DNA from: Bacteroidota bacterium
GTDB lineage: Bacteria > Bacteroidota > Bacteroidia > Flavobacteriales_F > PHOS-HE28
DNA: 47,285 bases
Reading direction: 5' to 3'
Assembly (NCBI GenBank): GCA_018267155.1
Contig: JAFDZE010000021.1
Span: 1-47,285 of the forward strand
Shown here: one piece after another, positions 595-35,023 of the stretch
Position numbering within the stretch: position 1 is the stretch's first letter
Layout of the letters: each line of letters starts with the position of its first letter
Notes under the pieces: generated by a model
Database searches by the model: none
Told to the model about the DNA's origin: nothing
Seen by the model: the letters and a program-made list of their open reading frames with translations, nothing else
Program-made: the position numbers and the translations under genes

Positions 595-654
595 GGGTGC
601 GAGGGTGTGAGGGTGCGAGAGACGTGACTCTTGCACCCTCGCACTTTCGCACCC
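595..654. repeat. Long palindromic element, GGTGCGAG type (intergenic copy a)
   Basis: Left arm 595-621 and right arm 627-654 are inverted repeats agreeing at about 24 of 27 positions, separated by a 5-nt loop. Each arm is itself about three units of a GGTGCGAG-like octamer. The stem is flanked by GAATGAACC on the left and GGTTCATTC on the right, which can also pair. It lies in the 249-bp gap between two minus-strand genes (470-718). It shares its unit with the element inside dnaE at 13351-13431 and with the intergenic element at 34914-35023. It may act as a terminator or mRNA-stabilising hairpin, but there is no T-run. Confidence 0.85.
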
Positions 655-10000: not shown

Positions 10001-10584
10001 GCGGTCGTGGTTCCGAAGGCATCGGCGAGCAACCGCTCATGCGCGTGGAGAACCAGCAGTACATCCACTACAATAAAGGCAGCGTGGTGTTGTACGGACT
10101 GCGCGACTTCCTTGGGGAGGAGCGCATGAACGCGGGGCTGCGCCACTTCGTGGATTCCTTCGCCTTCAGGGAAGCGCCATATCCCACCACGCTGGACCTC
10201 TACCGCTCGTTGGAGGTCGTTACGCCGGACAGCCTGCACTACCTGCTCGATGATGGCTTGGCGCAGATCACCTTCCACCGGAATGCCGTGACTTCCGCCA
10301 AGGCCGCGCAGAACGCCAATGGTTCATGGACGGTGACCGCCGCGATCGGCTGCGCCAAGTTCCACGCGGACTCCCTGGGCAAAGAGACCGAGGTGCCCAT
10401 GAACGACTGGTTGGACGTGGCCGTGGAGCATGAAGGCGGAGAGATGAAGCGTCGCGTGCGGTTGCGTTCCGGGGAGAATTCGGTGCGCATGACCGTCCCT
10501 CGGAAGCCCAAGGCGGTGGTTGTCGATCCCGATCACTTGTTCTTCGATCGGGAGGGAGAGGACGATCGGCGTGGGGTTGAGTGA
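7051..10584 (+). CDS. ABC-2 permease fused to M1-family metallopeptidase (copy 2)
   Basis: About 1177 residues, paralogous along its whole length to the preceding gene. I chose GTG at 7051 because VVSRLILFELRFWLRQP then aligns with the N-terminus of copy 1 (MTWRLFLIELRHWFRQP); a TTG at 7036 would add five residues. Two ABC-2 membrane blocks are followed by the M1-like domain with HEVAH at residues 927-931, the downstream Glu in MLNESMAQ, and GTMPYSE in place of GxMEN. No second ATPase gene lies nearby, so the ATPase at 2473 probably serves both copies, perhaps as a heterodimer. The gene ends at 10584 and the convergent dnaE stop begins at 10585, with no spacer and no obvious terminator. Confidence 0.9.
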   Translation: MVSRLILFELRFWLRQPLLWVFLGLAFAFGCAAAVFESGGQGGPGMVHVNAPRHVYELYANLAFLWLPMVTAFVNATAIRDFACRTSEIVFSTVVTRRQYLFGRFLGSTLVALIPTLGISAGLVTGSWIPYGDPIRFGPNSWAVHGQAFLWFAVSSIAFQSAVMFAVATLVRSTAAAFLTSIVLVVLNGVAMAYATQVDNAWLASLLDPFGVNALDEVTRYWSVHDSNTALLPVTGALTWNRLLWLGIAAIVFVIGYLRFSFTGRRSRVKPLAEGPSAALADPTIPAVAIVHDGRTRAKQFISMLRSDLSSILRSPVYWIIAGLGLVLCLVALSEVSQAFGTRTWPVTYNITELLRGLSMLFIVVLITYYSGELFWRDRDVGLDGILHALPVRSRWRVPAHFTAVLVVGGIVLALMSLCGMATQLAMGYTRLQVGLYFASFIGPGLVAFAFWSLLALTIQMVLHHKYAGFGFFILLFALNMVIWDILKVRSNLVVLYGSPPLWYSDMNGFGPFLAPWLFFRSYWLAFAAVLFFAAALYLVRGGDNTWRWRTRIAGARLRRSWAVGITVLGVWLLLLGFGFYNTRILNRPHAPQDTERLQAEYERTYKPLAAMALPHITAIDITIDLGPQERAIAYQAEMTLRNKGTRPVDTLWFSLPDRMKLRYDIPGATDILDDTAHYVRMFRLDEPLAVGDSIRIGIASEWRQQGFGNDVEFAQLVENGTFINNGDLLPAIGYQAEAELTDLGARRKHGLRPNQRMQGLSEDPALRQHNAVMPYADHIRFACTIGTAPDQRAIAPGELKREWLENGKRWFRYECVAPIFNFWSVLSGRYEVARANAGPVALEVYHHPGHGINVQRMLKAMSDAVAYASAQFAPYQHRSARIVEFPRYRRFAQSFPGTMPYSEAIGFITDLRDTARIDMVYYVVAHEVAHQWWGHQVIGPRMQGATMLNESMAQFTALMVLEKEYGRGAMRRFLKYERDSYLRGRGSEGIGEQPLMRVENQQYIHYNKGSVVLYGLRDFLGEERMNAGLRHFVDSFAFREAPYPTTLDLYRSLEVVTPDSLHYLLDDGLAQITFHRNAVTSAKAAQNANGSWTVTAAIGCAKFHADSLGKETEVPMNDWLDVAVEHEGGEMKRRVRLRSGENSVRMTVPRKPKAVVVDPDHLFFDREGEDDRRGVE

Positions 10585-13500
10585 TCACTTCTCCCCATAC
10601 CTCGGATCCGGCTTCCACGGCAGCTTCTCCATGCTGGTGGTGCGTAATGAGTAATGGCCGAACTCCTCTTCCACCACACCGGTGAGCCGGTACACGCCCC
10701 TGCCGCGGAACGGATACCTGGCCGCCACCTGCGGGAACTGCGTGCTGTCCCAGAAGTCGCCGGCGGTGTCGATGAAGCTACCGAAACTCATGTAGTTGCC
10801 TGTTTGCGTGGTGGCGCTCTTCACGTGGATCATGTAGCCGAGCATGGATACGCGCTTGCCGATGTGGGAGGGCATGTCGCGTTTGAGGATGAAGGGCGGG
10901 GGCGGGGTGAATGGTGAATGGGGGCTGGTGAATGGAACTGAACGGTCGCTTCTATTCCATTCGCCATTCGCCAACTCCCATTCACCTGCTTGCACCAACG
11001 AGAACGGATCGCACAGCGGAAAACCCAGCAGATCCAGTTCATCGTAGGCGTCGGCCAAGAGGTAGTGTTGCAGGTCGGGCAACCGGGGTTCCTCCACGCG
11101 CGTGATGAAGAGGTCGCCATCGGCGGTGACGCTCGCGGGCTTATGCAGCAACGTAAGGTCCCACAGCAATTGCGGTTTGCTCTTTCCGGTGAAGCGCAAG
11201 GCGCCCACGCGGATCAGGATGCGCGCTTGTTCCAGCGAGAGCGGGACTCGTTTCAAAAGATCCTCCAGATGAAGGAATGGTCCCTTGCGGCGGCGTTCGT
11301 GCAGGATCAGTTCAACGCTTTCATTCTCGAGGCTTTTGATGTTGGAGAGGCCGAGGTATATACGTGGATCAGAAGGTGAATGGCGAATGGGAGTTGGCGA
11401 ATGGAGAGATGCCCCATTCGCTATTCGCCATTGACCATTCACCTGCTCGACCTGCACCAACGCGCACAACTCCTCACTGGCATTCACGCACGGCGCCTCG
11501 ATCACCGCACCCGCGCGTTTCGCTTCATGCAGGTAGAATTCCAGCCGGTAGAAACCGCCGAAGTTGTTCGCCACGCCCACGAGGAATTCCAGCGGATGGT
11601 GCGCCTTCAGGTAGAGGCTCTGGTAGCTCTCCACGGCGTAGCTGGCGCTGTGGCCCTTGGCGAAGCTGAAGCTCGCGAAGCTCTGGATCTGCCGCCACAC
11701 CTCTTCAGCCTCGCCGGGCGGATAGCCGAACGCCTTGCAGTTCTCGAAGAATTTCTTCTCCACCACCTTGAACTCCGGCCGGTCGCGGTAGCGCAGGTTC
11801 ATGCCGCGCCGCACCGTGTCCGACTCCTCCAGGTCCAGGCCGCCGTAGAGGTGTACCACTTTGATCACATCCTCCTGGTACACCATCACACCGTAGGTCT
11901 CGGGCATGATCGCCAACAAGCGCGGAATGGCCTGCTTCATGCGTTCCGGATCGTTGTGGCGCAGCAGGTACTCGCGCATCATGCCGCTCTCGGCCACGCC
12001 CGGTCGTATGATGCTGCTCGCCGCCACCAGTCCCAGGTAATCATCCACCTGCAGTTTCTTCAGCAGCATGCGCATGGCGGGGCTTTCCACATAGAAGCAG
12101 CCGATGGTATCGCCCTTGCGCAGCAGTTCCTTGATCGCGGGATCCTGCTTGAAACGCGGTATGTCGTGGATGTCCACCGCTGCGCGGAAGTCACAAGGCT
12201 CAAGTTTCAGATCACAAGCTTCAAGCGCGCCGGCGTTGAGACTTGAGGCTTGATCCTTGTGACTTGAAGCTTGAACGAGCTCCACCGCATCGCGTATATG
12301 CCCCAGGCCGCGTTGGCTCAGCAGGTCGAACTTGTGCAGGCCCATGTCCTCGCATTCGAGCATGCTGATCTGCGTTACGGGAAAGCCCTTAGGCGGACGG
12401 AACAGTGCCGAGAAGTGCGTCACCGGCTTCTCCGTGATCACGATACCGCCGGCGTGGATGCCCAGGTGATGCGGCATGCCGATGAGCTGTTGCCCGTAGC
12501 GGACCACCGCCTGCGCCACCTTGTCCACCTCGTTGCTCTTCGCGTGTGCGCTGGGTCTTCCGCGCGAGTAGTAGCCGTGATCGCCTTCGGATAGCGCATC
12601 GATCTCCACCGGCGGAAGCCCCACGGCCTTGCCCAGCTCGCGTATGGCACCGCGCCATTGGAAGGTGGTGTAGGTGGCGATCTGCGCGGCGTGGATTCCG
12701 CCCGCTCTTCCATCCGTGGAGTTGTACTTATTAAAGACATACCGGTACACCTCGTCGCGGTCCTTCCAACTGAAGTCGATGTCGAAGTCGGGCGGCTTTT
12801 TGCGTGCGGGGTTGATGAAGCGCTCGAAGTAGAGGTCGAGTTCCATGGGGTCCACATCGGTGATGCGCAGGCAATAGGCCACCAGGCTGTTGGCACCGCT
12901 GCCGCGCCCCACGTGGAAGAAGCCCCGGCTGCGGGCGTAGTTCACGAGGTCCTGGTTGATGAGGAAATAGCTGATGAAGCCCATGCGCTCGATCACATCC
13001 AACTCGTGGTGCATGCGGGCCAGCACCTTGGGCGTTACCTCCGGGTAGCGGTAGCGCAGCCCTTCACGCGTGTCGCGGTGCAGCTTTTCGCGGTCGGCGC
13101 GCACATCGTTGGTGAAGGCCACGCGCGTCTTGTCGCTGCCGTCGAAGACGATGCTGCATTGCTCCAACACACGTTCGGCGTTGGCGATGAGCTGCGGATG
13201 ATCATTATAGATGCGACGCACCTCCTCTTCGCTGCGGAAACATTCGTCGGCTTGCGCCAACTCTTCCTTCGGCAACATGCTCACCACCGTGTTCTTGGCC
13301 ACGGTGCGCAGCAGGCGGTGCGTGTTGTAGTCTTTCTTGCTGGGTGAAGAAGTGAGAGAGTGAGAGGGTGCGAGGGTGCCGGGCTCCATGACTCTCTCAC
13401 CTTCGCACCCTCGCACGCTCGTACGCTCGCATCTCCGGAATGTCACCGGCATCAACGCCACGAGTTCATGTTGCCGCTTCACCCAGGGGGAGAACGGTAA

Positions 13501-13911
13501 ACGCGTGAGATCCGAGGGCCTGATGCCCACCCGCTCGTTGGGGCGCAGTTGCTGTGGCGCGTGGCTGAACGGATGGATGAAAAAGACATCGGTGAGGGCG
13601 GGAGCCCGCTCCGGGATCGCCTCATCATCCAGCAGGTGCGGGCTCAGCAGTTCGTTCAGTTGCTGCAAGCCGTTGTTGTTCATCGCGATACCGATGTACA
13701 GGAGCCTCGGTCCCTTTCGGAATTCGATGCCCGCCACGGGCCGTACGCCGTAGCGCGGCGCATCGCGCACGAAGTCGGGGATGCCCGCCGAGCAGTGGAT
13801 GTCGGTGAGGGCGAGGGTGCGCACGCCGGCCTTGGCCGCTTCTTCGAGCAAGGCTTCGGGTTTCAGTACGCCATACTTGAAGCTGAACCAGGAGTGGCAG
13901 TTGAGGAACAT
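10585..13911 (-). CDS. dnaE: DNA polymerase III alpha subunit, short form, with four hairpin-encoded inserts
   Basis: A C-family polymerase of 1108 residues. The N-terminal PHP domain starts NCHSWFSFKYG, where the usual HxH is not intact, so PHP metal catalysis is doubtful. The palm Asp motif PDFDIDF is at about residues 373-379. Further conserved blocks are FDLLSQRGLGHIRDA, GDTIGCFYVESPAMRMLL and a C-terminal OB-like region (VSMLGYMIHVKSATTQTG). Without about 110-120 residues encoded by four palindromic repeats (near residues 160-187, 545-573, 823-845 and 975-1002) it would be about 990 residues, a usual length for the second, shorter DnaE of Bacteroidota. The inserts fall in the PHP region, before the fingers, in the C-terminal helical region and in the linker before the OB domain. 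The frame stays open through all four. It is divergent from an XRE/S24 regulator, so damage-inducible control is plausible. Confidence 0.93.
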   Translation of the reverse strand: MFLNCHSWFSFKYGVLKPEALLEEAAKAGVRTLALTDIHCSAGIPDFVRDAPRYGVRPVAGIEFRKGPRLLYIGIAMNNNGLQQLNELLSPHLLDDEAIPERAPALTDVFFIHPFSHAPQQLRPNERVGIRPSDLTRLPFSPWVKRQHELVALMPVTFRRCERTSVRGCEGERVMEPGTLAPSHSLTSSPSKKDYNTHRLLRTVAKNTVVSMLPKEELAQADECFRSEEEVRRIYNDHPQLIANAERVLEQCSIVFDGSDKTRVAFTNDVRADREKLHRDTREGLRYRYPEVTPKVLARMHHELDVIERMGFISYFLINQDLVNYARSRGFFHVGRGSGANSLVAYCLRITDVDPMELDLYFERFINPARKKPPDFDIDFSWKDRDEVYRYVFNKYNSTDGRAGGIHAAQIATYTTFQWRGAIRELGKAVGLPPVEIDALSEGDHGYYSRGRPSAHAKSNEVDKVAQAVVRYGQQLIGMPHHLGIHAGGIVITEKPVTHFSALFRPPKGFPVTQISMLECEDMGLHKFDLLSQRGLGHIRDAVELVQASSHKDQASSLNAGALEACDLKLEPCDFRAAVDIHDIPRFKQDPAIKELLRKGDTIGCFYVESPAMRMLLKKLQVDDYLGLVAASSIIRPGVAESGMMREYLLRHNDPERMKQAIPRLLAIMPETYGVMVYQEDVIKVVHLYGGLDLEESDTVRRGMNLRYRDRPEFKVVEKKFFENCKAFGYPPGEAEEVWRQIQSFASFSFAKGHSASYAVESYQSLYLKAHHPLEFLVGVANNFGGFYRLEFYLHEAKRAGAVIEAPCVNASEELCALVQVEQVNGQWRIANGASLHSPTPIRHSPSDPRIYLGLSNIKSLENESVELILHERRRKGPFLHLEDLLKRVPLSLEQARILIRVGALRFTGKSKPQLLWDLTLLHKPASVTADGDLFITRVEEPRLPDLQHYLLADAYDELDLLGFPLCDPFSLVQAGEWELANGEWNRSDRSVPFTSPHSPFTPPPPFILKRDMPSHIGKRVSMLGYMIHVKSATTQTGNYMSFGSFIDTAGDFWDSTQFPQVAARYPFRGRGVYRLTGVVEEEFGHYSLRTTSMEKLPWKPDPRYGEK
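10906..10986. repeat. Palindromic element inside dnaE, GGCGAATG type (copy b)
   Basis: Arms 10906-10937 and 10955-10986 are inverted repeats matching at 24 of 32 positions, with a 17-nt loop. The arms are built from GGTGAATG/GGCGAATG-like units. The element is 81 nt, 27 codons, and is read through in the dnaE frame as GEWELANGEW then a loop and PFTSPHSPFT. It sits in the linker before the OB domain of DnaE. Confidence 0.9.
11375..11443. repeat. Palindromic element inside dnaE, GGCGAATG type (copy c)
   Basis: Arms 11375-11404 and 11414-11443 match at 23 of 30 positions after reverse complementing, with a 9-nt loop. The left arm is nearly the same sequence as an arm of copy b. At 69 nt it is a multiple of three and is translated in dnaE as VNGQWRIANG followed by SPTPIRHSPS-like residues. 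That is the same reading frame of the unit as copy b. It lies in the C-terminal helical part of DnaE, just before RIYLGLSNIKSLE. Confidence 0.9.
12191..12275. repeat. Palindromic element inside dnaE, TCACAAG/CTTCAAG type (copy d)
   Basis: Left arm about 12191-12225 and right arm about 12242-12275 are imperfect inverted repeats made of short TCACAAG, CTTCAAG and GATCAAG units; the centre CGCGCCGGCG is GC-rich. The element encodes VQASSHKDQASS...EACDLKLEPCDF in DnaE, between FDLLSQRGLGHIRDAVEL and AVDIHDIPRFKQD, two blocks that are normally close together in this enzyme. The unit differs in sequence from the other copies but the architecture is the same. Confidence 0.8.
13351..13431. repeat. 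Palindromic element inside dnaE, GGTGCGAG type (copy e)
   Basis: Left arm about 13351-13379 (units like GTGAGAGA and GGTGCGAG) and right arm about 13391-13431 (units like CACCCTCG) form a long imperfect inverted repeat; about 20 of 27 positions match in the core. It shares its unit with the intergenic copies at 595 and 34914. In DnaE it encodes an Arg/Glu/Ser/Pro-rich stretch (RGCEGERVMEPGTLAPSHS) in the PHP-domain region, before DYNTHRLLRTVAKN. Confidence 0.85.
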
Positions 13912-13929
13912 GGTCGGGAAGAGGGCCGA

Positions 13930-13960
13930 TTTGGAAAATTGGAAAGCGGCGATACATTTG
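13930..13960 (+). promoter_or_regulatory. Bacteroidota-type promoter of the XRE/S24 regulator
   Basis: TTTG at 13930-13933, a 19-nt spacer, then TACATTTG at 13953-13960. This matches the phylum's -33/-7 consensus (TTTG, about 19-20 nt, TAnnTTTG) exactly. The start codon of the regulator follows at 14006. Confidence 0.85.
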
Positions 13961-13975
13961 ACGCGGAAACCGTCA
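13959..13975. promoter_or_regulatory. Candidate operator TGACG-N7-CGTCA
   Basis: A perfect 5+5 bp inverted repeat overlapping the end of the -7 box and the expected transcription start of the regulator gene, in the 94-bp gap shared with dnaE. The position suits autorepression by an XRE/LexA-like dimer and possible co-control of the divergent dnaE. No binding data are available from sequence alone. Confidence 0.5.
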
Positions 13976-14005
13976 TTCTGTCGTCGGTAAATTAGTCAAG
14001 AAGCC

Positions 14006-14836
14006 ATGGCAGGCAACACCACCTTCGGAGCGAACATCAAATTGCTGCGCACCCGCCGGGGCCGCAGCCAGGAAGAGACCGCTATCGCCCTCGACGTGAA
14101 GCGATCGAGCTGGAGCGGCTACGAGAACGGCAGCGCCGAGCCCAACCTGGATCTGCTGGTGCGCATCAGCGCGTACTTCAAGATCAGCGTGGACAAGCTG
14201 CTCAAGCACGACCTCACGCTGTTGAGCGAAAGCCAGCTCGGCATCCTGGAGCGGGGCGGGGACGTGGACATGGACGGCCGCCGCCTGCGGGTGCTGGCCA
14301 CCACGGTGAGCAAGGACAACGAGGAGAACATCGAACTGGTGCCCGAGAAGGCCCGCGCCGGTTATGCCCTGGGTTACGCCGATCCGGAGTACATCAGCGT
14401 GCTGCCCACCTTCCAGATGCCCTTCCTGGGGCGCGACCGCAAGTACCGCACCTTCCAGATCAGTGGGGACAGCATGCCGCCGGTGGGCAACGGCTCGTGG
14501 GTCACCGGGGAGTACGTGCAGAACTGGCAGATGATCAGAGATGGCCAGCCTTACGTTGTGGTCACCAAGGACGACGGCATCGTTTTCAAGGTGGTGTACA
14601 ACAAACTGAAGGAGAAGGGCACCCTGCTGCTGTGCAGCACCAATCCAGTGTATCCGCCCTACGAGGTGGAAGTGGGCAACGTGCTGGAGATCTGGAAGTT
14701 CGTACACTTCATCAGTCAGGAATTGCCCGAGCCGAACCTCTCCCGCGACGAGCTGGCCCGCAGCGTGATGGTACTGCAGAAAGAGGTGGGGCAGCTTCGA
14801 CTGAGCATTGAGCAGCAGGGGAGGCTGGCATTGTGA
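14006..14836 (+). CDS. XRE-family regulator with S24 (LexA/CI-like) C-terminal domain
   Basis: A 276-residue protein. An N-terminal helix-turn-helix (about residues 8-65, with RSQEETAIALDVKRSSWSGY and PNLDLLVRISAYF) is followed by an S24 peptidase-like domain. The dyad is visible: Ser in SGDSMPPVGNG (about residue 155) and Lys in IVFKVVYN. The family comprises damage-responsive repressors that self-cleave after RecA activation; whether this one cleaves is inference, and no typical Ala-Gly cleavage site is obvious. The gene starts 94 bp from dnaE in divergent orientation. In related genomes similar regulators sit beside DNA polymerase IV (dinB) and dnaE; no dinB is present here. It has a strong promoter with an inverted repeat across the start site. 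Confidence 0.88.
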   Translation: MAGNTTFGANIKLLRTRRGRSQEETAIALDVKRSSWSGYENGSAEPNLDLLVRISAYFKISVDKLLKHDLTLLSESQLGILERGGDVDMDGRRLRVLATTVSKDNEENIELVPEKARAGYALGYADPEYISVLPTFQMPFLGRDRKYRTFQISGDSMPPVGNGSWVTGEYVQNWQMIRDGQPYVVVTKDDGIVFKVVYNKLKEKGTLLLCSTNPVYPPYEVEVGNVLEIWKFVHFISQELPEPNLSRDELARSVMVLQKEVGQLRLSIEQQGRLAL

Positions 14837-19355: not shown

Positions 19356-20027
19356 ATGAAAACCGTACGGACCGCTTTCGGCAAGAACCTTCCTTGGATG
19401 ATGACGGTGCTCGTCCTCCTGCTGCAAGGGTGCCTCACCATCGAGGAGCACTACGTCTTCAAGAAGGACGGCTCAGGCACATTGGAGTATGTGTTCGATG
19501 CGAGTGAAATGGGCGAGATGCTGAAGGGGTTCCCGGGGAGCAAGGACGACAAGGACGGCATGAAGGAGAACGACTTGAGTGACAAGATCGGAGCGTTGAA
19601 GGCCATTCCGGGTATCACCAAAGTGAAGCATAAAAAGGAGGATGACGGCTGGGTGCAGCGCATGAGCCTCCGGTTCGCCAACATCAACGCGTTGAATGCC
19701 GCACTGAATGAGTTGGATGCTGACAGTACCTCGGCCGACCACACCTATTTCAAGTGGGAAGGCAATACCCTGGTGCGCACCACGGGTCACGAGACCGGCG
19801 ACCTGGCCACGGGCATGGGTGGCTCGGGTGATTCGACCACGGCGATACTCAAAGAGATGCACTACAAGTTCGACATGAAATTCGCCGATGAACTCGGCGA
19901 GGTGAAGGCGGCCGATGGTATGGTGAAGGAAATGGACGGGACCAAGCACGTGAAACTGAGCACCGACTGGTCCATGATCAAGGACGATCCCGCGGCGTTG
20001 GACCTGCGGATCACGTTGAAGAAGTAG
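19356..20027 (+). CDS. Putative lipoprotein of unknown function
   Basis: 223 residues from the ATG at 19356. The N-terminus MKTVRTAFGKNLPWMMTVLV runs into the lipobox LLLQGC, so Cys is the likely lipidation site. The mature part begins LTIEEHYVFKKDGSGTLEYV and is rich in Lys, Asp and Glu with no motif I recognise. A weak -7-like box (TACTTTTC, 19329-19336) lies 19 nt upstream of the start. The following HD-domain gene starts two bases after its stop, so the two are probably co-transcribed. The periplasmic or outer-membrane side cannot be decided. Confidence 0.75.
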   Translation: MKTVRTAFGKNLPWMMTVLVLLLQGCLTIEEHYVFKKDGSGTLEYVFDASEMGEMLKGFPGSKDDKDGMKENDLSDKIGALKAIPGITKVKHKKEDDGWVQRMSLRFANINALNAALNELDADSTSADHTYFKWEGNTLVRTTGHETGDLATGMGGSGDSTTAILKEMHYKFDMKFADELGEVKAADGMVKEMDGTKHVKLSTDWSMIKDDPAALDLRITLKK

Positions 20028-33850: not shown

Positions 33851-33931
33851 GGTGGCTAGAGGCGAGAGGCGAGAGGCGAGTGGCAGAACTGTATCCACAG
33901 CGGCCACTCGCCACTCACCACTCGCCACTCA
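33851..33931. repeat. Palindromic element, GGCGAGTG type (intergenic copy f)
   Basis: Left arm 33851-33884 and right arm 33902-33931 are inverted repeats; in the best 26-nt core 22 positions match. Each arm is three to four units of GGCGAGAG/GGCGAGTG. It fills the gap between the ECF sigma start (33841) and the transketolase C-half stop (33942). The sigma reading frame is open across it and contains an ATG, so an N-terminal extension of the sigma factor cannot be excluded. Confidence 0.88.
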
Positions 33932-34913: not shown

Positions 34914-35023
34914 GAGGGTGCGAGGTAGCGAGGGTGCATGGGTGTGAAGGTGCCAGGGTGCGAGGGTACAAGGGTGCAAGGCGGATCGCTCTCTTTCACC
35001 TTCGCACCCTGGCACCCCGCTAC
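34914..35023. repeat. Palindromic element, GGTGCGAG type (intergenic copy g)
   Basis: The longest copy: left arm about 34914-34980 and right arm about 34989-35023. The best pairing is 34925-34952 with 34993-35022, both containing GTAGCG and GGTGCGAAGG-like units. It lies between the vWA gene (stop at 35032) and the transketolase C-half start (34898). Like copy f, it leaves the downstream reading frame open. It shares its unit with copies a and e. Confidence 0.85.

Follow-up and report, generated by a model that had tools for sequence, protein, structure and literature searches.

Results obtained on a DnaE-type DNA polymerase gene of a draft Bacteroidota genome show that three positions in the gene (c, b and a) are insertion slots, which hold different repeat families from species to species with conserved protein on both sides. 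Genes whose core protein is at least 97% identical can have completely different occupants, or none. Judging from the sequences compared, the gene likely offers docking slots in which selfish DNA has been swapped repeatedly, with the enzyme apparently left unbroken. We regard the palindromes as in-frame copies of dispersed repeat families (probability roughly 0.6), likely selfish non-autonomous DNA, which persist in loops predicted to tolerate them.

Such a gene would amount to a natural experiment: at fixed codon positions of a conserved enzyme, many unrelated palindromes come in, displace each other and are lost again. The gene would allow one to follow at high resolution how selfish DNA is inserted, exchanged and tolerated within coding sequence, and it provides a testable model of how disordered loops of replication and repair proteins may arise from parasitic DNA. 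It also carries a warning for work on environmental Bacteroidota, whose genes will confront alignment and structure prediction with inserts of this kind.

The polymerase gene and its four palindromes

The window, that is the whole stretch of 47,285 nucleotides analyzed here (contig JAFDZE010000021.1 of assembly GCA_018267155.1), had been predicted to contain four imperfect palindromes with units of 7-8 nt inside a polymerase gene. All four are present at the predicted positions within one open frame (10585-13911). The gene, its hairpins and the adjoining regulator are the following:

10585..13911, minus strand: DnaE-type DNA polymerase gene, intact frame of 1108 aa, host of the four hairpins
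13351..13431, minus strand: hairpin d, family C, 8-nt unit GGTGCGAG, aa ~160-191, in a loop of the PHP domain
12191..12275, minus strand: hairpin c, family B, 7-nt units CTTGTGA/CTTGAGT, aa ~546-577
11375..11443, minus strand: hairpin b, family A, 7-nt unit GGYGAAT, aa ~819-847
10906..10986, minus strand: hairpin a, family A, aa ~974-1003, between the HhH part and the C-terminal part
14006..14836, plus strand: HTH/S24-peptidase regulator (HTH_3 and Peptidase_S24), divergent from and adjoining the polymerase gene

The hairpins measure 69-85 nt. Their units are degenerate and their arms inverted, with a best repeat lag of 7 nt in a, b and c and of 8 nt in d. A repeat search places the arms at 10906-10942/10950-10986 (a), 11371-11404/11414-11447 (b), 12188-12217/12236-12265 (c) and 13353-13379/13405-13431 (d). 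Compared to homologues of 998 aa the inserts add about 110 residues to the predicted protein, the lower end of the 110-120 estimated originally. The kinship of the palindromes had to be revised: b and c were thought to share sequence, but the true pair is formed by those at 10906 and 11375 (GGYGAAT), and those at 12191 and 13351 belong to two other families. Neither is the related pair read in the same frame, as had been claimed. Its codon phases differ (AGEWELANGEW against VNGQWRIANG in the gene), and the peptide NGEWELANG quoted earlier is absent from the protein. Because the unit is 7 nt long, the codon phase cycles along family A copies.

The product of 10585-13911 carries the Pfam domains PHP, DNA_pol3_alpha, DNA_pol3_finger and HHH_6, scores above the cut-off of TIGR00594, and its polymerase motifs align with E. 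coli alpha. It falls below the cut-off of both the replicative model PRK05673 (502.5 bits, cut-off 1002) and the error-prone model PRK05672 (465.4 bits, cut-off 939). A second, replicative DnaE is found elsewhere in the genome (contig C105, partial) and passes PRK05673 with 1015.7 bits against the same cut-off of 1002. Given the two scores below cut-off, the separate replicative DnaE and the divergent S24 gene, the hairpin-bearing polymerase is therefore probably of the DnaE2 type (damage-inducible) rather than the replicase. The LexA-like context of the regulator supports this assignment; S24-type SOS regulators of error-prone polymerases are described for Bacteroidetes in PMC8565304, and the divergent S24 arrangement fits. 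None of the eight window neighbours scanned encodes an ImuB-like protein, and none of three motifs tried occurs in the region between the polymerase and the S24 gene. With a separate replicative DnaE in the genome, the polymerase is probably non-essential, contrary to its first description as an essential-type enzyme.

An AlphaFold2 model of the polymerase is poor (mean pLDDT 60.9, pTM 0.35), with values below 50 for the inserts and likewise for conserved parts. For this reason the inserts were placed in loops by alignment to E. coli alpha (5fku), in which slot c corresponds to residues ~575-581, slot b to ~824 and slot d to ~205, slot a being outside the aligned part. From the domain limits described in the literature, we take these positions to be the palm-fingers junction (c), the fingers before the HhH (b) and a PHP loop (d). 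A known structured RNA was rejected as an explanation, 10400-14100 having no Rfam match at gathering score.

Slot occupancy and turnover among relatives

To compare relatives we used an alignment of P0001 and 120 listed homologues (less P0002, which is identical to P0001), and called a slot filled if it held at least 10 residues in alignment columns occupied by fewer than 70% of rows. Among these 120, the best of 7939 listed matches, slot c is filled in 92 (a recount that merges two alignment blocks, of 52 and 80, earlier given apart), slot b in 86 and slot a in 83. Slot d is filled in 1 of the 120, namely the own gene, and comparable blocks outside the slots occur in at most 4 of the 120 rows. 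The segments are thus absent or different at these places in orthologues, as an alignment with relatives had been expected to show. All four inserts are missing from each of the six outgroup proteins compared, which come from other Bacteroidota and include two near-identical ones (L074, L079 and five Streptomyces loci set aside).

The comparison was extended to DNA from 45 genomes of the genus, 41 of which have a polymerase match; four duplicate rows of the 45 were removed from the folding and occupancy counts, leaving 41 rows from 40 genomes. At least eight repeat families occupy the three slots. The occupants, labelled approximately by loose patterns, are A, A2, B, C, D, E, F, G, H, I, J, M and a GTAG-type palindrome, and they appear singly or in series. 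As for site d, 38 of the 39 genus rows are empty there ('empty' includes short K- and H-type inserts), and among the genomes examined it is filled solely in the own one. The suggestion that several hairpin types in one enzyme are peculiar to this genome is therefore rejected and holds for site d alone: across the genus it is usual for the slots to be filled by a variety of families. At c a right-hand tail, TTCCGCGAAGCGG, is common to several B and F inserts, and F carries TTCCGCGAAGCGG at b in G030. One homologue of 1417 aa (P0020) has a site-a segment of 379 residues consisting mostly of ALSTEREGPSEGTVAR-type repeats.

The filled slots often fold well. Of the 99 filled slots, 66 reached a folding z below -2, compared with 4 of the 93 control windows taken from other parts of these genes (inserts shorter than 54 nt or containing N excluded, those over 330 nt shortened). 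By slot, the proportions are 27/35 for c, 26/35 for b and 13/29 for a. The other 33 slots fold no better than z -2, and old or one-armed repeats are among them.

Differences are pronounced when closely related genes are compared. In the 17 pairs with a core identity of at least 0.97, which have members in common and represent about six independent events, insert identity is below 0.5 in 7 of 17 comparisons at c, 2 of 15 at b and 1 of 10 at a. For core identities of 0.94-0.97 the corresponding numbers are 29 of 34, 16 of 31 and 23 of 28. Swaps in the closest class are seen at c in P0072/P0089 and P0069/P0075, at b in P0016/P0018 and at a in P0077/P0083. In P0057/P0091 slot c is filled in one gene and empty in the other at 97.7% core identity, and P0063/P0064 differ by a tandem triplication at c. 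Every window of 60 residues has an identity of 0.87-1.00 in P0072/P0089, P0069/P0075, P0016/P0018 and P0057/P0091. In P0035/P0047 identity drops to 0.80-0.88 beyond slot a, and the difference may belong to a longer tract that was exchanged.

Other events concern the inserts themselves. The E-type hairpins that L070 carries at c and at b are identical over 99 of 100 bases, the loop being counted in; recent copying is demonstrated for this pair alone, because family A copies in the own genome are mostly 74-84% alike. In G041 and G025, one hairpin family is nested at c in the loop of another, and the difference between G013 and G023 at site a is a pure tandem expansion. One protein, P0011, has a and b inserts equal to those of the own gene and switches lineage near aa 722-780; in a comparison with P0001 and P0108 it matches one lineage up to ~aa 722 and the lineage of the own gene from ~782. 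It was set aside as a natural recombinant or an assembly chimera.

Two near-identical genomes, G044 and G010, were compared as well. Most of the 76 kb aligned is 99.4-99.8% identical (98.7% overall), with one 7.8-kb stretch at 96%. The alignment is interrupted five times: three breaks are N runs, one concerns about 20 bases and the fifth is a hairpin difference. Here G044 (C54, ~19804-19938, L281) has a 135-base hairpin of the GATCAGA type (octamer), where G010 (C1, ~3338153-3339229, L285/L286) has, between the same flanks, about 1.08 kb with an rsgA-like gene. Hairpin content is changing at this depth of divergence. The event looks like a replacement rather than a clean insertion, and allele replacement fits better because the hairpin takes the place of the rsgA-like stretch and not of an empty site.

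Dispersal of the repeat families

Copies of the hairpins were predicted elsewhere in the genome, and a search indeed found them outside the polymerase gene. In 443,240 bases of the own genome (the window plus 395,955 further bases) 21 palindromes reach a score of 16, against none in one Markov-shuffled control; as the window was picked for its hairpins, this density is descriptive only. In eleven of these the arms are periodic, the best lag being 7 or 8 nt and the fraction of matching positions at least 0.42; two further palindromes (at most 0.36 matching) are left out of this number. Four of the eleven are in the polymerase gene, four in the other 395,955 bases and three elsewhere in the window:

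595..654, unstranded: hairpin of family C, intergenic, between ORFs 2-469 and 719-2470
33858..33929, unstranded: hairpin of family A2 (GGCGAGT), immediately upstream of where a sigma-70-like gene probably starts
34949..35016, unstranded: hairpin of family C, upstream of where a transketolase C-terminal-type gene probably starts

In the long frames of the latter two genes, Sigma70_r2 starts at residue 56 and Transket_pyr at residue 48. Searches with the window hairpins gave 30 own-genome matches for b (family A), 5 for c (family B) and 48 for d (family C), counts which include the query itself and in many cases list one copy more than once, by its two strands or its arms. The arms of family A consist of a small set of heptamer variants strung together in varying order, and their pairing is imperfect. 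A covariance model of this family (R1) has 36 strand-doubled matches in the own genome; hairpin b is the best of these, and hairpin a is found on both strands. At E 0.01, R1 has matches in 33 of the 44 genus genomes and, at E 1e-4, in 10 of 198 genomes of a class sample, six in the genus and four outside it. The four outside have weaker scores and AT-richer heptamer hairpins. At L277, L278, L279 and L280 we observed heptamer-armed hairpins with AT-richer units (such as GGATAAT, GAATAGC, GGTTAAT), belonging to other families of the class, which suggests that the hairpin type is wider than the genus.

In-frame copies are also present in other genes of the own genome: the replicative DnaE, Mfd (three inserts, two of them from families searched), guanylate cyclases (near the C-terminus), TrhO and an S66 peptidase. 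In the genus, the replicative DnaE has one site, filled in 11 of 30 (at least 12 aa), and Mfd has one main site, filled in 12 of 28 (at least 10 aa), as well as smaller ones; the sites of both genes mix family A with other sequence. The DnaE2-type gene is thus the extreme case of a wider habit. The prediction of dispersed palindromic repeats read in frame at loop-like positions is borne out, with orthologues that vary or are without inserts and copies elsewhere in the genome.

Some further palindromes were encountered. Three guanylate-cyclase frames about 2.05 kb apart (G000:C96; L004, L009, L010) each have an in-frame family A hairpin near the C-terminus. At L127 (2795-3350, G000:C73), three close palindromes of 96-98 bases have GCGCTTCGACRCGCTCAGCGTGAC in common and form a different palindromic family. 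The palindrome at L133 (8997-9083) contains CACAGAGGCACAGAGGACACGGAG, and a similar motif is seen in the site-c insert of G018.

Origin of the palindromes and comparison with known systems

How the hairpins move can be approached from the transposases present. They might be REP-like elements moved in trans by the Y1 (IS200/IS605-like, RAYT) transposases of these genomes, which we consider possible but unlikely. Y1_Tnp genes above cut-off are found in 31 of 44 genus genomes (three in the own genome), and family A and Y1 match numbers show a weak correlation (Spearman 0.37, p 0.013, 44 genomes; 0.38, p 0.034, in the 31 genomes at least 90% complete), phylogeny being ignored in both. Moreover, site a of G006 holds a GTAG-tagged palindrome, a type tied to RAYTs in PMC3733652. 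However, in an exact-motif scan with strict patterns of 32 Y1 loci (the best-scoring locus per genome and the own genome's three), motifs of families A, A2, C, D, E, F and K occur at none and single B, G or J motifs at four, and no transposase linked to the hairpin families was found at these loci. Family A is present without a Y1 match in G022 (93% complete) and G036 (99% complete, 9% contaminated), Y1 without family A in five genomes, and the own genome's Y1 genes at C105 and C52 adjoin inverted repeats unrelated to the hairpins. GTAG or CGTC occurs nowhere in the four window hairpins on either strand. The four window copies have no flanking direct repeat longer than 3 nt (hairpin ends taken from the original prediction, shifts of a few bases covered), so the target-site duplication expected for a MITE of a DDE transposon is likewise absent there. 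Given the negative Y1 motif scan, family A without Y1 and the lack of a duplication or tag, copying of folded hairpins by host replication or repair, with later allele exchange across the conserved flanks, is therefore favoured. Strong inverted repeats, unlike the heptamer hairpins in sequence, were also noted beside Y1-type transposase genes at L120 (18868-18933) and L118 (789-856); they are possibly the ends of those transposons.

The folding results raise the question whether the hairpins are selected. An RNA or DNA fold in the coding region could tune expression of a mutagenic polymerase, and if the fold alone matters its sequence could turn over freely. This would agree with the 66 of 99 filled slots below z -2 despite unrelated sequences, and with filling that is commoner in the DnaE2-type gene (83 to 92 of the best 120 of 7939 listed matches, at least 10 aa) than in the replicative DnaE (11/30) and Mfd (12/28), a comparison in which the samples and one threshold differ. 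Nevertheless, close relatives have empty alleles, the same families occur in intergenic DNA and unrelated genes, and one third of the filled slots are without significant folding, which makes the explanation quite improbable. Little more can be said for a combined model, speculative and rather improbable, of three cassette slots whose exchange is far faster than protein change, with hairpins of any sequence kept by tuning the mutagenic polymerase or copied by its error-prone synthesis, such that mutator gene and palindrome pool sustain each other. Local growth, in which slippage expands tandem units of 7-8 nt that fold back on the spot, no mobile element being involved, also receives a low probability: the few heptamer variants in variable order in family A arms and the pure tandem expansion between G013 and G023 are what it would produce, but it does not account for the same families at many loci per genome, with family A in 33 of 44 genus genomes, for unrelated families replacing each other in otherwise near-identical genes, or for the 99 of 100 identical bases at the two slots of L070. 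That the inserts are an assembly artefact or the gene a decaying pseudogene is hardly credible. It is true that the window genome is a draft of 164 contigs and 82% completeness, that much of the data consists of metagenome assemblies, that P0011 appears chimeric or recombinant, that site a of G028 contains an N run and that the match in G022 has two internal stops. Yet polymerase-gene inserts are also found in independent assemblies (G010, a single contig, in the replicative DnaE; G025, 7 contigs; G041, 9 contigs), internal stops occur in no listed match other than that of G022, and the alignment of the polymerase motifs with E. coli alpha argues against decay.

For the preferred reading, in-frame copies of dispersed and likely selfish families, we propose that a folded hairpin is duplicated to give a new copy, perhaps when single-stranded at a fork or break. 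Alleles bearing hairpins would then pass between strains via recombination across the conserved flanks. Survival in a gene would be limited to copies that are free of stops and keep the frame, and selection would filter the hairpins to tolerated loops. The pattern agrees with the spreading mobile hairpin originally proposed, the steps outlined here being its putative mode of movement.

Several known systems resemble parts of this picture. PMC3733652 describes GTAG/CGTC REPs, which are mostly intergenic and sometimes in frame, with DnaE2, uvrA and recB among the repair genes that harbour them. It also records an element of the REP type in dnaE (replicative) of R. conorii, and two Xanthomonas species whose recB holds unlike REPs at roughly one site. 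The likeness consists of short palindromes that are dispersed, largely between genes and in part in frame, and of DnaE2 as a host. Unlike these REPs, the four window hairpins are without GTAG/CGTC, are longer (69-85 nt) and have arm units of 7-8 nt; furthermore, at least eight families are common to the same three slots, and no linked RAYT was found. Rickettsia palindromic elements (RPE) are in-frame palindromic inserts tolerated in many proteins. They are similar in mode, as a palindrome in frame in a conserved protein and absent from orthologues; the host phylum differs, and the slot occupants here change between families within a genus. With REPs in DnaE2 genes and RPEs as precedents, in-frame palindromes themselves are thus of a kind already known. 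Our searches of the open-licence PMC literature turned up neither a publication on the turnover of several hairpin families at fixed slots of a coding gene nor one on heptamer repeats in Flavobacteriales.

Heptamers are known from other repeats as well. The STRRs of cyanobacteria are heptamer tandem repeats, and in the cyanobacterial tRNA-Leu intron the arms of a stem-loop are degenerate heptanucleotide repeats, whose classes differ between strains at one site. Degenerate heptanucleotide arms and a class that varies at one site are shared with our hairpins, but the intron is a group I intron RNA and not a protein-coding gene. Heptamer repeats of the TAACTGA type, found in Beggiatoaceae, cyanobacteria and Bacteroidetes, are mainly direct repeats and in one genome lie mostly just upstream of start codons, according to PMC4679880. 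The 7-nt unit and its head-to-tail order in a, b and c are alike, whereas the heptamers described here form palindromes, many of them inside coding slots. The unit of family D, GTTGTCA, is one base away from GTTATCA, which is TAACTGA on the other strand, shifted in cycle.
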